Virus record (IMG/VR): IMGVR_UViG_3300043399_000099
Coordinates: 1 to 56,622 of that record
Direction: 5' to 3' (one strand)
From: a virus
Length of the DNA stretch: 56,622 nt
Both the position numbers and the translations under genes were made by a program. Below, piece after piece: positions 8,921 to 42,726 of this stretch. The notes beneath the pieces were generated by a model. That model was not told where the DNA came from, ran no database searches, and worked only from the letters and a program-made list of their open reading frames with translations. The number at the start of each line of letters is the position of its first letter. Positions within the stretch are counted from its first letter, which is position 1.

Positions 8921-9123
8921 TTGCGTATAAGAATCTGGATGACATCTGCGAGGGTGTGTCTGTGTGGTCTTTGATGAATGACGAGGGCCATGCTAAGCTA
9001 AAAAAATGTATTAAGGTATATTGGGACGCATACTATGACCCGCCTGAGGGTGTGGTTGGTGTGGGCAGGATCACATACGCAGAGCAACAGCTAGTGCTGG
9101 CACAAGAGGTGAAACAACTATGA
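8917..9123 (+). CDS. hypothetical early protein
   Basis: This 68-residue protein has no recognised family. It has GAGGAGA upstream and overlaps the preceding gene by ATGA and the next gene by 4 nt, which supports expression. It is mostly helical (WSLMNDEGHAKLKKCIKVYWDAYY). Confidence 0.6.
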   Translation: MIAYKNLDDICEGVSVWSLMNDEGHAKLKKCIKVYWDAYYDPPEGVVGVGRITYAEQQLVLAQEVKQL

Positions 9124-9287
9124 TCTATGAGGAAACAGAACACTTGACAGCACTTGATGCTAAGTCTAAGGGTGAAGCATTCAAGACCGCTTGGGGGTGG
9201 GGTTACGATCCTACCTATCAGGTATACTACAACGCAACAGATGAAGTGTGGGTGTGCCGCACTAGCAGATACTCTAGCTGTGATTAG
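9120..9287 (+). CDS. small hypothetical early protein (55 aa)
   Basis: ATG at 9120 overlaps the previous stop. The 55-residue product has a helical N-terminal half (EHLTALDAKSKGEAFKTA) and an aromatic C-terminal half with two Cys (WVCRTSRYSSCD). Position in a chain of overlapping genes is the main support. No family was recognised. Confidence 0.55.
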   Translation: MIYEETEHLTALDAKSKGEAFKTAWGWGYDPTYQVYYNATDEVWVCRTSRYSSCD

Positions 9288-9296
9288 GAGATAGAT

Positions 9297-9695
9297 ATGA
9301 CATTGCATAATCTGACAGACCTAGCTAACGTATTGCGTGGGTTGGATAAGTATGATCCTCTCGATGGTGAGGGTTTTGACATGCGCAATGACTGGATCAC
9401 CAGAAAGGAAACAGAACATTCTTGCGGTTCAGCCTGTTGCATTGGCGGATGGGTTCAACATCACAATCCAGAAACTTTTAGGGATCAATTGGGGGTAGTG
9501 GGTGCTGTGGCTACACTACTACCTATGAGTGTGGACAAGGATGATATTATCTGGGATGAACTGAATGAACTTTGCTACCCTACCTACCTTGAGGCATGGG
9601 ATGCGACACCACAACAGGCAGCACGTGCAGTAGAAATCCTTCGTGATACTGGCAAGTGTGATTGGGAACGTGCAATGAGTGAGGAAACAAAATGA
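9297..9695 (+). CDS. hypothetical early protein with Cys-rich motif
   Basis: This 132-residue protein carries EHSCGSACCIGGW near residues 40-52. That motif recurs in phage and host proteins of unknown function with a (H..CG..CC..GW) pattern. A helical C-terminus (TPQQAARAVEILRD) follows. AGGAGATAG precedes the ATG. It overlaps the next gene by 4 nt (ATGA). Confidence 0.65.
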   Translation: MTLHNLTDLANVLRGLDKYDPLDGEGFDMRNDWITRKETEHSCGSACCIGGWVQHHNPETFRDQLGVVGAVATLLPMSVDKDDIIWDELNELCYPTYLEAWDATPQQAARAVEILRDTGKCDWERAMSEETK

Positions 9696-10072
9696 ATACT
9701 TATGACTTTGGTAATGGCCCTGTAGCTGCACATAAGCACCCTAATGGTGGCGGATGGGTAGCTGATAGTGCTAAGGTATATGGTAATGCTGTAGTATCTG
9801 GTAATGCTGTAGTATATGGTAATGCTGTAGTATCTGGTAATGCTGTAGTATCTGGTAATGCTGTAGTATCTGGTAATGCTTGGGTATATGGTGATGCTGT
9901 AGTATATGGTGATGCTGTAGTATCTGGTAATGCTGTAGTATCTGGTAATGCTGTAGTATTTGGTTATGCTAAAGTATATGGTGATGCTGAGGTATATGGT
10001 GATGCTTGGGTATATGGTAATGCTGTAGTATCTGGTAATGCTAGGGTATATGAAGGGGAGATTACGGAATGA
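9692..10072 (+). CDS. left-handed beta-helix (hexapeptide-repeat) protein
   Basis: This is a 126-residue protein. Residues 1-27 form a capping segment (NTYDFGNGPVAAHKHPNGGG, then WVADSAKVY). About 16 near-perfect hexapeptides of the form GNAVVS, GNAVVY or GDAVVY follow. This spacing is diagnostic of a left-handed parallel beta-helix. There is no catalytic domain attached, unlike bacterial acyltransferases with the same repeat. A trimeric scaffold, decoy or host-protein mimic are possibilities. The repeats are also near-identical at DNA level (18-nt units), so copy number may vary between relatives. Confidence 0.85.
   Translation: MNTYDFGNGPVAAHKHPNGGGWVADSAKVYGNAVVSGNAVVYGNAVVSGNAVVSGNAVVSGNAWVYGDAVVYGDAVVSGNAVVSGNAVVFGYAKVYGDAEVYGDAWVYGNAVVSGNARVYEGEITE
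9776..10050 (+). repeat. 18-bp coding tandem repeats
   Basis: Units of the form GGTAATGCTGTAGTATCT, or TATGGTGATGCT variants, repeat in tandem and encode the hexapeptides of the beta-helix gene. Identity between units is high enough for slippage or recombination. Confidence 0.85.
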
Positions 10073-10212
10073 AATACCTACAGATGTTCACATACTACAT
10101 GGTTGTAGTGGCGATTGTTATTCACCATATCCCATTCCTGCGGGCAAGTTTTGAGGTTCAAACTGACTACTACTATAAGACCATGGCAGAGGAGATGGGG
10201 TTGTGGGAATGA
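10069..10212 (+). CDS. small membrane protein (47 aa)
   Basis: ATG at 10069 overlaps the stop of the beta-helix gene. The 47-residue product has one membrane segment (FTYYMVVVAIVIHHIPFL) and a polar C-terminal tail (TDYYYKTMAEEMGLWE). It might work with the beta-helix protein, to which it is translationally coupled, for example as a membrane anchor. That link is inference. Confidence 0.5.
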   Translation: MKYLQMFTYYMVVVAIVIHHIPFLRASFEVQTDYYYKTMAEEMGLWE

Positions 10213-10255: not shown

Positions 10256-10591
10256 ATGGCTTTTTATATGTGGGATCAAAACAACTCTGGTGGAAGTTTT
10301 GTTGTAAATAAGAACCTTTCACATCGCGTTGTAATTGAAGCTAAGAATAAAAAGGAAGCGGAAAGTAAAGCATCTTACTTTGGTATCTATTATGATGGAG
10401 TAGAAGAAGGTATTGATTGTGAATGTTGTGGTGATCGCTGGTACAGAGATTCTTATGAACTTGATTGTGAGGGTATGGACACTTATCTACAAAACCTAGC
10501 TGATGAATATGGTTGGGAAGACCCTGACATTATTGTACACTACCTTGACGGAACTAAAAAGACTTTTACTGGCAAGGGGTACAAGAAGTGA
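10256..10591 (+). CDS. conserved phage protein, DUF7296-like
   Basis: This 111-residue protein has the pattern NNSGGSFVV at the N-terminus, then KEAESKASYFGIYYDGVEEG and DCECCGDRWY, as in a phage family I recall as DUF7296. The Cys-x-Cys-Cys cluster may bind metal. AAAGGATAA precedes the ATG. The stop overlaps the GTG start of the following hydrolase, so both are probably translated together. Confidence 0.65.
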   Translation: MAFYMWDQNNSGGSFVVNKNLSHRVVIEAKNKKEAESKASYFGIYYDGVEEGIDCECCGDRWYRDSYELDCEGMDTYLQNLADEYGWEDPDIIVHYLDGTKKTFTGKGYKK

Positions 10592-10950
10592 TAACCCTAG
10601 CAACCTTATGCCTTGCGGCTAACATCTACTTCGAAGCAAGAGGTGAGCCGCTTGATGGGCAAATCCTAGTGGCCGAGGTCACATTGAATATCGCTGGTGA
10701 AGATGGTGACATTTGTGCAACTGTCTTTGAAGAAGGAGAATTTAGCTGGACGAATGACAAGAACTTGGTTATAGAAGAACCAGAGGCGTTCAGTGAAGCG
10801 TTTGCTTTGGCACAGGAAATCCTTGAGAAAGGTTGCATCCTATGCACTAAGGCTACCAACTTCCACACTAGGAATACTGAACCTTACTGGGCTAAACACA
10901 TGACGTTTGTAGGTGCTTATGGTAATCACCTATTCTACAAGGAAGAATAA
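10588..10950 (+). CDS. SleB-like cell wall hydrolase
   Basis: This 120-residue protein matches the Hydrolase_2/SleB domain. It has AANIYFEARGEPLDGQ with the conserved Glu at about residue 16, a FSW segment near 49, and a C-terminal HTRN...W...G.H.FY block. Such enzymes cut glycan strands. It starts with GTG overlapping the previous stop. It has no signal peptide and lies in the early region, far from the late lysis genes and the virion transglycosylase. Its role may be recycling or remodelling of the wall rather than final lysis. Confidence 0.8.
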   Translation: MITLATLCLAANIYFEARGEPLDGQILVAEVTLNIAGEDGDICATVFEEGEFSWTNDKNLVIEEPEAFSEAFALAQEILEKGCILCTKATNFHTRNTEPYWAKHMTFVGAYGNHLFYKEE

Positions 10951-10996: not shown

Positions 10997-11073
10997 CTGC
11001 CACTAGCTCAACTGGATAGAGCAAAAGCCTTCTAAGCTTTAGGTTCCGTGTTCGAATCACGGGTGGCAGGCCA
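10997..11073 (+). tRNA. tRNA-Arg (anticodon UCU)
   Basis: A full cloverleaf can be drawn. The acceptor CTGCCAC (10997-11003) pairs with GTGGCAG (11063-11069). The D arm is GCTC-loop-GAGC. The anticodon arm AAAGC-CTTCTAA-GCTTT gives anticodon TCT. The T arm is CCGTG-TTCGAAT-CACGG. The discriminator is G and CCA is encoded. It reads AGA codons, which are rare in G+C-rich alphaproteobacteria but used by this phage. It lies between the SleB-like hydrolase and rIIA genes. Confidence 0.95.
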
Positions 11074-40819: not shown

Positions 40820-42726
40820 TATAGTACCACCCAGTTAGAGCCAGTAGGGATAGTAACAGTAACACCAGAGTTTACTGTAATAGGCCCTGTAGACATTGCG
40901 TTTTTATTTGTTGTAAGAGTATAGTTAGATGTTACTGTTTGGGCGTTCTCAACGAAGACTTCATCATTGCCCCCGCCAGTTGCACCACCGCCAACCGATC
41001 CCCAAGCAGCTCCGTTGTAACCCTCAAACTTATTTACGGTTGTGTTAAAGCGGAAGAAACCTGTGCTAGGTGTACCATCTCGTTGAGCTTCTGTGCCTGT
41101 TGGGATTCCAGCAGAACCAGTAGCACTTGTGCGAGGGACATAGGCTGTGCTATCAGTTGTAGCTGCTGTACCAAGACCTAGGTTAGTCCTAGCATCAGCA
41201 GCAGTGGACGCACCAGTACCACCATCGGCTATAGCTAGGTCAGTAATCCCCGTGACAGAGCCACCCGTAATACTCACGTTGCTAGAATCTTGAGTAGAGA
41301 TAGTTCCGAGACCTAGGTTAGTTCTTGCACCAGAAGCAGTAGACGACCCCGTACCACCATCAGCTACAGCAAGATCAGTGATACCTGTGATTGAACCACC
41401 AGAGATACTTACATTATTACTATCCTGTGTGGAGATGGTGCCAAGACCTAGGTTAGTTCTAGCGCCCGAAGCAGTAGATGCACCAGTGCCACCATCAGCT
41501 ACAGCCAGATCAGTAATGCCAGTGATAGTACCTGCACTGATAGTAGCAGTATCAGCAACCAAGGAGTCAATGTTAGCAGTACCCGTAATGTACAGGTCTT
41601 TCCATTCGCTACCAACAGCGCCAAGATCGTAGAGGTTATCTGCAGAAGGGATCAAGCTGGATGCAACATCAGCCGTAATAGTTACAGTATCCGTAGCAGC
41701 ATTACCTAAAGTAGTATTACCGTTTACAGTAAGGTCAGCAGTGATGGTAGCTGATTCATCAACTTGGAGTGTGTCTACTTGAGCAATACCATCAACATAG
41801 ATGTTGCGCCATTCATCAGTAGCAGTCCCAAGATCGTGTGTGTTATCCACAGAAGGGATTAAGCTAGAGGCCACATCTGCAGTGATCGTTACGGTATCTG
41901 TCGCAGAATTGCCTAAGGTAGTATTACCGTTTACAGTAAGGTCAGCAGTAATAGTAGCAGACTCATCTACCTGCAGGGTATCTACCTGAGCAACACCATC
42001 AATGTATAGGTTACGCCACTCATCAGTAGCAGCACCAAGGTCATAGGTATTATCAATAGAGGGGGTCAAATGGGATGCAACATCTGCGGTGATAGTCACA
42101 GTGTCAGTTGCTGCATTGCCTAGCGTAGTGTTGCCGTTGACAGTGAGGTCAGCAGTAATAGTAGCTGATTCGTCTACCTGCAAAGTATCTACTTGGGCAG
42201 TACCATCAATGTATAGGTTACGCCACTCATCAGTAGCAGCACCAAGGTCATAGGTATTATCAATAGAGGGAATTAGGTCAGATGCTACATCAGCAGTGAT
42301 TATGACAGTATCAGTTGCAGAGTTACCCAAAGTAGTATTGCCGTTTACTACAGTGTTACCGACGATGGTAGCATTACCACTTACAGTAAGATCAGCGGCA
42401 ATGTTAGCTGACTCATCCACTTGTAGCGTATCTACTTGAGCAGTACCATCAAGGTACAGATTCTTAAACTCAAGGGTACTGGTACCTAGGTCAACAGTGT
42501 TGTCAACTTTGGGGCGCATTGCTGTGGTAGTGATAACAACATCTTGCACTGGGCCGAGGGTAACAACAGGAGCGCCGCCACCAGTAGTGCCATCGTGGGT
42601 GTGACCATCAATAGCATTCATGGCAGTTTGGATTGCGTCAAACTCTCCATCAAGGTCTGAAGCATTGATTAAGTTGCCATTGGAGATATTGTTAGCTGTG
42701 TCGTTACGAGTATAACCTGTTGCCAT
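40819..42726 (-). CDS. long repetitive tail fibre
   Basis: This 635-residue fibre has an N-terminal attachment segment (about 1-80). About four copies of a 69-residue repeat follow (core: DEWRNLYIDG, VDTLQVDESATITADL, VNGNTTLGN). Three copies of a 45-residue repeat come next (core: ITDLAVADGGTGASTA, GARTNLGLGTISTQDS), then a C-terminal tip. The repeats are near-identical in DNA (207-bp and 135-bp units), so length variation by recombination is expected. Confidence 0.85.
   Translation of the reverse strand: MATGYTRNDTANNISNGNLINASDLDGEFDAIQTAMNAIDGHTHDGTTGGGAPVVTLGPVQDVVITTTAMRPKVDNTVDLGTSTLEFKNLYLDGTAQVDTLQVDESANIAADLTVSGNATIVGNTVVNGNTTLGNSATDTVIITADVASDLIPSIDNTYDLGAATDEWRNLYIDGTAQVDTLQVDESATITADLTVNGNTTLGNAATDTVTITADVASHLTPSIDNTYDLGAATDEWRNLYIDGVAQVDTLQVDESATITADLTVNGNTTLGNSATDTVTITADVASSLIPSVDNTHDLGTATDEWRNIYVDGIAQVDTLQVDESATITADLTVNGNTTLGNAATDTVTITADVASSLIPSADNLYDLGAVGSEWKDLYITGTANIDSLVADTATISAGTITGITDLAVADGGTGASTASGARTNLGLGTISTQDSNNVSISGGSITGITDLAVADGGTGSSTASGARTNLGLGTISTQDSSNVSITGGSVTGITDLAIADGGTGASTAADARTNLGLGTAATTDSTAYVPRTSATGSAGIPTGTEAQRDGTPSTGFFRFNTTVNKFEGYNGAAWGSVGGGATGGGNDEVFVENAQTVTSNYTLTTNKNAMSTGPITVNSGVTVTIPTGSNWVVL
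41170..42500 (-). repeat. 207-bp and 135-bp coding repeats of the fibre gene
   Basis: Copies of one segment begin at 41995 and 42202, exactly 207 bp apart, with near-perfect identity over at least 65 bp. The 135-bp family spans about 41170-41570 in three copies. Short-read assembly of this stretch could be collapsed. Confidence 0.8.

Follow-up and report, generated by a model that had tools for sequence, protein, structure and literature searches.

As a general rule of the fold, hexapeptide beta-solenoids direct residues i and i+4 of each repeat inward and leave i+1, i+3 and i+5 exposed. The closest described relatives of the protein presented below are the YdcK family (PF18836; PDB 2f9c/2pig) and the phage proteins of PHROG 7964 and PHROG 5070, which have no assigned function and whose repeat evolution is not described in the papers found; a literature search likewise found nothing describing phage YdcK-type solenoids. 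Solenoid genes are common in phages, where they are labelled hypothetical, "polymer-forming cytoskeletal", "acyltransferase" or even "glycerol kinase". Among other beta-solenoids, BacM forms filaments via hydrophobic stacking (PMC4372379). The WD, ANK and TPR repeats of fungal NLRs are homogenised, with selected positions mapping to the interaction surface (PMC4986451), and the same signature of repeat evolution is reported for the PRDM9 zinc-finger minisatellite (PMC8925151). Here, we describe a free-standing solenoid gene of a marine phage, encoded in a viral record of 56.6 kb (IMG/VR IMGVR_UViG_3300043399_000099, all 56,622 nucleotides of which are called the window), and compare it with its relatives.

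A YdcK-type solenoid in the early region of a marine phage

Among DNA polymerases, that of an oyster-derived phage of the Zobellviridae was closest to the one in the window, and Roseobacter phage CRP-6 was one of the next best matches. The sole nucleotide-level match of the 8-20 kb region was Siovirus americense, of the genus of roseophage SIO1. The solenoid gene (9692-10072, + strand, ATG start, 126 aa) lies within a run of small genes, and the rIIA/rIIB homologues, integrase and replication genes are all located downstream. It encodes an N-terminal cap (MNTYDFGNGPVAAHKHPNGGGW, aa 1-22, 9692-9757), an array of 16 units of 18 bp (aa 23-118, 9758-10045) with the scaffold GTA TNT GRT NAT GCT NNR, from which the first unit deviates at exposed codons, and a C-terminal tail of eight residues (VYEGEITE) plus the stop codon (10046-10072, GTATATGAAGGGGAGATTACGGAATGA), which also holds a ribosome-binding site for the gene that follows. 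At the DNA level, the array is a tandem repeat of period 18 with 14.8 copies and 88% matches, and the motif G[NDY]AxV occurs 15 times in the protein, compared to a mean of 0.16 and a maximum of 3 in shuffled versions (n=2000).

Profile searches matched the protein to PF18836 in eight stretches (E 7e-18; 63.4 bits against a gathering threshold of 30), identified YdcK (PDB 2f9c/2pig) as the best solved relative (E 2e-13), and aligned the end of the cap and the hexapeptide array to PHROG 7964 and PHROG 5070 (E 8e-35 and 4e-30). Scores were far under the cut-off for the full-length YdcK equivalog NF040481 (37.8 bits; cut-off 350) and also below it for the hexapeptide acyltransferases, LpxA and others, of PF00132 (11.3 bits; cut-off 27) and for Bactofilin PF04519 (20.7 bits; Pfam cut-off 27.9). 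No catalytic domain was found in the protein, which consists of cap, repeats and tail only, as the first-pass annotation had described it (a short cap followed by about 16 hexapeptides). It is a YdcK-type beta-solenoid of a kind already widespread in phages. Neither a signal peptide nor a membrane span was seen in the sequence, and the protein is probably cytoplasmic.

AlphaFold2 predicted the expected solenoid fold as a regular model with one strand per six residues (pLDDT 82, pTM 0.75), and a rerun with a second alignment gave similar scores (pLDDT 78, pTM 0.73). Foldseek searches of either model against the PDB and viral models returned no significant match; the presumed left-handedness of the solenoid was for this reason derived from YdcK homology and the hexapeptide rule and not from the models. 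Face-specific periodicity of the exposed residues was not detected, as similarity at lag 3 (0.316) did not exceed that at lag 1 (0.326) and lay close to the shuffled value (0.288).

Further genes of the early region include a short SleB-like cell-wall hydrolase (Hydrolase_2; 10588-10950, + strand) and, between the hydrolase and the rIIA homologue, a tRNA-Arg with anticodon TCT (10997-11073, + strand); no other tRNA gene was detected in the window.

Solenoid relatives in phages and bacteria

Loci were gathered by query peptide patterns that favour regular arrays, and the same patterns were used for the bacterial control. Solenoid relatives were obtained from 61 phage records, 64 IMG/VR loci (a few of which hold tail-type repeats only) and 24 bacterial-genome loci. 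Two cap types were distinguished: type A (FDFGNG-V-AH-HPNGGGWVADTA), as in the window and conserved among its phage relatives, and the YdcK-like type B (KYEIT...LGGFIESEDNLSHEGDCWV). Solenoid paralogues stand in tandem in several phages (L002, L012, L018 and L024). Bacteria often have the same combination of cap and coils built as a module into large secreted proteins.

Unrelated phages have their solenoid genes at early or accessory positions. Streptococcus phage Sfi19 carries the gene between cro and the replication genes, with the anti-CRISPR AcrIIA6 a few genes away, and in Vibrio Zobellviridae it is placed among small hypothetical genes. No consistent anti-defence neighbourhood was observed across the solenoid loci. 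When gene neighbourhoods were compared, the neighbours in the window were absent from other solenoid loci outside the closest relative, save for the SleB-like hydrolase, which is shared with three other loci, two of them near-identical contigs (a relative lies just upstream of the solenoid gene in Curvibacter phage P26059A, L126, and likewise in L042/L043).

Several existing labels of solenoid genes deserve mention. In GenBank, the arrays of five Vibrio phages (L120-L124; MG592418, MG592419, MG592510, MG592511 and MG592579) are labelled as "CRISPR spacers" (ncRNA), which, inside protein-coding solenoid arrays, look like an annotation artefact. In Streptococcus prophage records such as MK448861 and MK448905, several solenoid genes are labelled "glycerol kinase", apparently a propagated misannotation.

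Fixed scaffolds and varied exposed codons

Within the window array, GTA starts 16/16 units, GCT encodes every alanine and GGT every turn glycine. Third bases are nearly constant throughout, and the exposed codons (i+1, i+3 and i+5) vary in bases one and two. Other phages carry other scaffolds (GTC..GGT..GCA in L037, GTC..GGG..GCA in L042, GTC..GGT..GCT in L045 and GTT..GGA..GCT in L048), so that scaffold codons are fixed inside young arrays and different between phages. As each phage has its own fixed scaffold, the scaffold has been homogenised within each phage. Codon usage was considered as a cause of the fixed scaffold and rejected, since scaffolds differ from one phage to another and preferred codons are not used at several scaffold positions; in the window, GTA and AAT account for 16/16 and 10/10 of the respective scaffold codons, compared to 30% and 43% in the large genes of the same phage.

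Departures from the unit consensus were then counted at four-fold synonymous sites and, for the three exposed codons, at bases one and two. The window units departed at 0/47 four-fold sites and at 26/96 exposed bases (Fisher p 1.2e-5, a descriptive value, as units are not independent). Pooled across 33 phage arrays, not all of which are independent, departures amounted to 238/1896 at four-fold and 1509/4380 at exposed sites, with an excess at exposed sites in 30 of the 33. Fisher p-values are too small here because of the dependence between units; the site-level test with relatives removed agrees with them, 26/84 four-fold and 127/168 exposed sites being polymorphic (stratified z = 6.9). In contrast, the two rates were close in bacterial-genome arrays (276/626 four-fold and 884/1818 exposed). 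Pairwise comparison of units gave pN > pS in 24/33 phage arrays versus 0/17 bacterial-genome arrays, which had a median pS of 0.66. The signal was lost in the older phage arrays L025, L028, L046 and L055 (pN/pS < 1), and the tail-protein repeats of the window reverse the solenoid pattern (pS 0.60-0.63, pN 0.06). These 135-bp and 207-bp repeats are found in a tail-protein gene on the - strand (41171-41532 and 41616-42348), and they are old and under purifying selection.

Synonymous and exposed sites of an array share one genealogy, and the higher variation at exposed sites therefore indicates that selection favours exposed variation; this reasoning does not require independent units, whereas the size of the Fisher p-values does. 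The main alternative is a neutral coding minisatellite, in which the units arise and are rearranged by slippage and the exposed residues are free to drift, constraint being limited to the core. Such a process would produce a tandem 18-bp array with indels of whole units, and tolerance is expected at the exposed positions of a solenoid. However, merely tolerated residues should vary no more than synonymous sites, yet in the window and five other phages no four-fold site of the array varies, compared to 0.24-0.52 per site at the exposed positions. Given this difference and the breadth of the exposed excess among the 33 arrays, we consider neutral drift an unlikely explanation.

Change between closely related arrays

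Direct comparison of related phages showed how the arrays differ. The Streptococcus thermophilus phages Sfi19, SFi18 and CHPC919 have solenoid genes of equal length, and between CHPC919 and SFi18 there are 11 non-synonymous codon changes and no synonymous one. These changes all lie within the array, at i+1, i+2, i+3 and i+5, and the cap and C-terminal domain are identical. As many of the changes yield unit types already present, unit swapping or gene conversion is the likely source. In the Vibrio phages 1.034.O, 1.034.X, 1.139.A, 1.139.B and 1.209.O, the flanks are ~98-99% identical and the array units differ in number and order, blocks having been gained, lost or swapped in the deposited assemblies, in which short repeats can be misassembled. 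The solenoid frame is broken in two of these phages, 1.139.B (L123) and 1.209.O (L124), by stops inside the array and a disrupted 5' part, reflecting either real loss, in which case the protein would be dispensable there, or misassembly at the repeats. Between L001 and L153, two close relatives of the window, the cap is 96% identical and the array 78% identical with 36 gap columns. Among near-identical IMG/VR contigs, no recent length change was seen and array length was constant.

A candidate binding rod with a diversified surface

Because the exposed positions are diversified in a mode known from recognition repeats, we propose that the protein is a rod that binds through a diversified surface. 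According to this model, the inward valine (i), alanine (i+4) and turn glycine would build the rod and stay fixed, and the outward residues i+1, i+3 and i+5 would form its faces and be kept diverse. The 18-bp units would recombine through duplication, deletion and unit swapping, homogenising everything neutral, synonymous sites included, while selection would keep or restore differing exposed residues. The surface of this early accessory product could thus change fast via module reshuffling, and its likeliest use would be binding a variable protein of the host or of a rival phage, in host take-over or counter-defence. That the cytoplasmic, free-standing solenoid is a diversifying rod of this kind seems to us about evenly poised between right and wrong. 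Points against it are the older phage arrays that lack the signal, the constant array length among near-identical contigs and among the three S. thermophilus phages, the broken Vibrio copies and the lack of a consistent anti-defence neighbourhood. Surface binding is putative, with a host factor as the presumed partner, and counter-defence is perhaps the leading guess for its role. The first-pass annotation had suggested a variable-length early solenoid next to a membrane anchor, possibly directed against the host or its defences; the free-standing, variable-length and early character of the protein was borne out and its presumed diversifying surface is compatible with such a role, whereas the membrane anchor was not retained (see below). 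A broader proposition, put forward as a speculative possibility and more doubtful than probable, is that early, free-standing beta-solenoids make up a recognition-array class of their own in phages. Reshuffling of 18-bp modules, with core codons fixed and contact codons variable, would change their specificity, as a phage equivalent of repeat diversification in NLRs or PRDM9, and their targets would be variable proteins of the host, of its immunity or otherwise.

Other functions were weighed against the binding-rod model. A self-assembling scaffold or filament in the infected cell, similar to bactofilins, with surface differences that tune self-assembly, could draw on the precedent of BacM as a stacked beta-solenoid filament (PMC4372379) and on weak Bactofilin matches, which are under the Pfam cut-off in most members and above it in L126. 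Nevertheless, caps or tails at both ends fit head-to-tail stacking poorly, and rapid surface diversification is not predicted by self-assembly, making a filament quite improbable. Mimicry of DNA or another nucleic acid, as by the Qnr/MfpA pentapeptide proteins, had also been raised in the first-pass annotation, and a rod-shaped solenoid from the early region would suit it. The surface is, however, not strongly acidic, with a weak net charge of -6 over 126 aa (D+E 7.9%, K+R 3.2%; relatives -18 to +7), and exposed residues are mixed and include many V, W, K and R, leaving mimicry with very little probability. Similarly, targeted mutagenesis by a diversity-generating retroelement or the like, rather than selection, could make the exposed variation, as third bases appear protected and the i+3 residues look like a mutated AAY codon. 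Yet the changes are not restricted to adenines and turn up in all units, and no PF00078 reverse transcriptase was found in the window or in eight further phage records (five of them possibly partial contigs), so we regard this mechanism as highly unlikely.

The membrane peptide is an accidental neighbour

The solenoid stop codon overlaps the start of a 47-aa ORF (10069-10212, + strand) as ATGA, and the encoded peptide has a single hydrophobic segment (mean Kyte-Doolittle value over 19 residues, 1.79), in agreement with the one-pass membrane protein described in the first-pass annotation. A Shine-Dalgarno-like site predicted for this ORF (AAGGGGAG, 10053-10060, + strand) is located inside the solenoid gene. 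A single synonymous codon separates the window peptide from its L153 copy, and three and four codons separate it from the copies in L001 and L066; judging by this conservation, it is a real gene. The whole peptide was found in four records only, a fifth (L065) being cut off inside it.

The order of genes around the peptide is variable. In L001 and L153, the solenoid gene overlaps a gene for a 68-aa soluble protein, which is followed by a 111- or 113-aa gene and then the membrane peptide. In L066, the peptide lies behind the 68-aa gene and the solenoid is absent from the 10.7-kb fragment. A homologue of the 68-aa gene is found in the window upstream of the solenoid (9120-9287). Stop/start overlaps occur at all compared borders (window, L001, L153 and L066), and the ribosome-binding site of the peptide always lies in the last part of the gene before it (AAGGGGAG for the window, AAGGAAAC for both L001 and L153, TATGGAGA for L066). 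L001 retains the solenoid tail DNA GTATATGAAGGGGAGATTACGGAATGA, as does L153 apart from two changed bases, and in both it precedes a different gene. At none of the ~40 distinct solenoid loci other than the window does a relative of the peptide follow directly.

Since relatives separate the pair and every upstream gene supplies the ribosome-binding site of the peptide, its adjacency to the solenoid gene in the window is, as far as gene order can tell, a local event, and the peptide an accidental neighbour, not a fixed partner or membrane anchor. The earlier proposal of a single anti-host device at the membrane, which the stop/start overlap and the conserved hydrophobic peptide had made attractive, is thus scarcely credible: the adjacency expected in relatives with similar early regions was not found in the other three of the four whole-peptide records.

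Two further features of the related loci were noted. L001 contains a second, reverse-strand copy (1400-1564, - strand; 53% identity) related to the window gene at 9120-9287, which suggests a region with mobile small-gene cassettes, and in L153 the early genes are preceded, at positions 1-550, by short tandem repeats with readings of RPSYRL/LLDQVY type and HMVDNLS type.

Comparison with known systems

The phage solenoid shares its hexapeptide repeat type and fold with the YdcK family (PF18836; PDB 2f9c/2pig; NF040481). Unlike YdcK, it has a different cap and its array is a young, homogenised minisatellite, and its full-length score is far below the equivalog cut-off (37.8 versus 350 bits). PHROG 7964 and PHROG 5070 proteins share the cap end and hexapeptide array. 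Secreted bacterial proteins, including the Svx/AvrXca family (NF040510), have the HPNGGGWVADSA cap and first coils in common with it; there, however, these form one domain of a large protein with old repeats (pS 0.45-0.79), whereas the phage solenoid stands alone. Bactofilins (PF04519) are likewise beta-solenoids with weak profile similarity (20.7 bits), yet the phage protein scores below their cut-off and has a different repeat unit.

In mode of evolution, the closest likeness is to the high-internal-conservation repeats of fungal NLRs (HET-D/HET-E type) and to PRDM9, which also combine homogenised repeats, unit shuffling and variation at interaction positions. The solenoid arrays display homogenised units, length polymorphism and a non-synonymous excess at exposed sites, as recognition repeats do. 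The NLR and PRDM9 repeats have folds unrelated to the phage solenoid, and the correspondence is an analogy of mode and not homology. If the surfaces are truly diversified by selection, these solenoids would offer ready-made probes for the variable host factors to which phages have to bind. They would also be a rare instance, in viruses of bacteria, of the strategy of repeat shuffling that fungal NLRs and PRDM9 exemplify.
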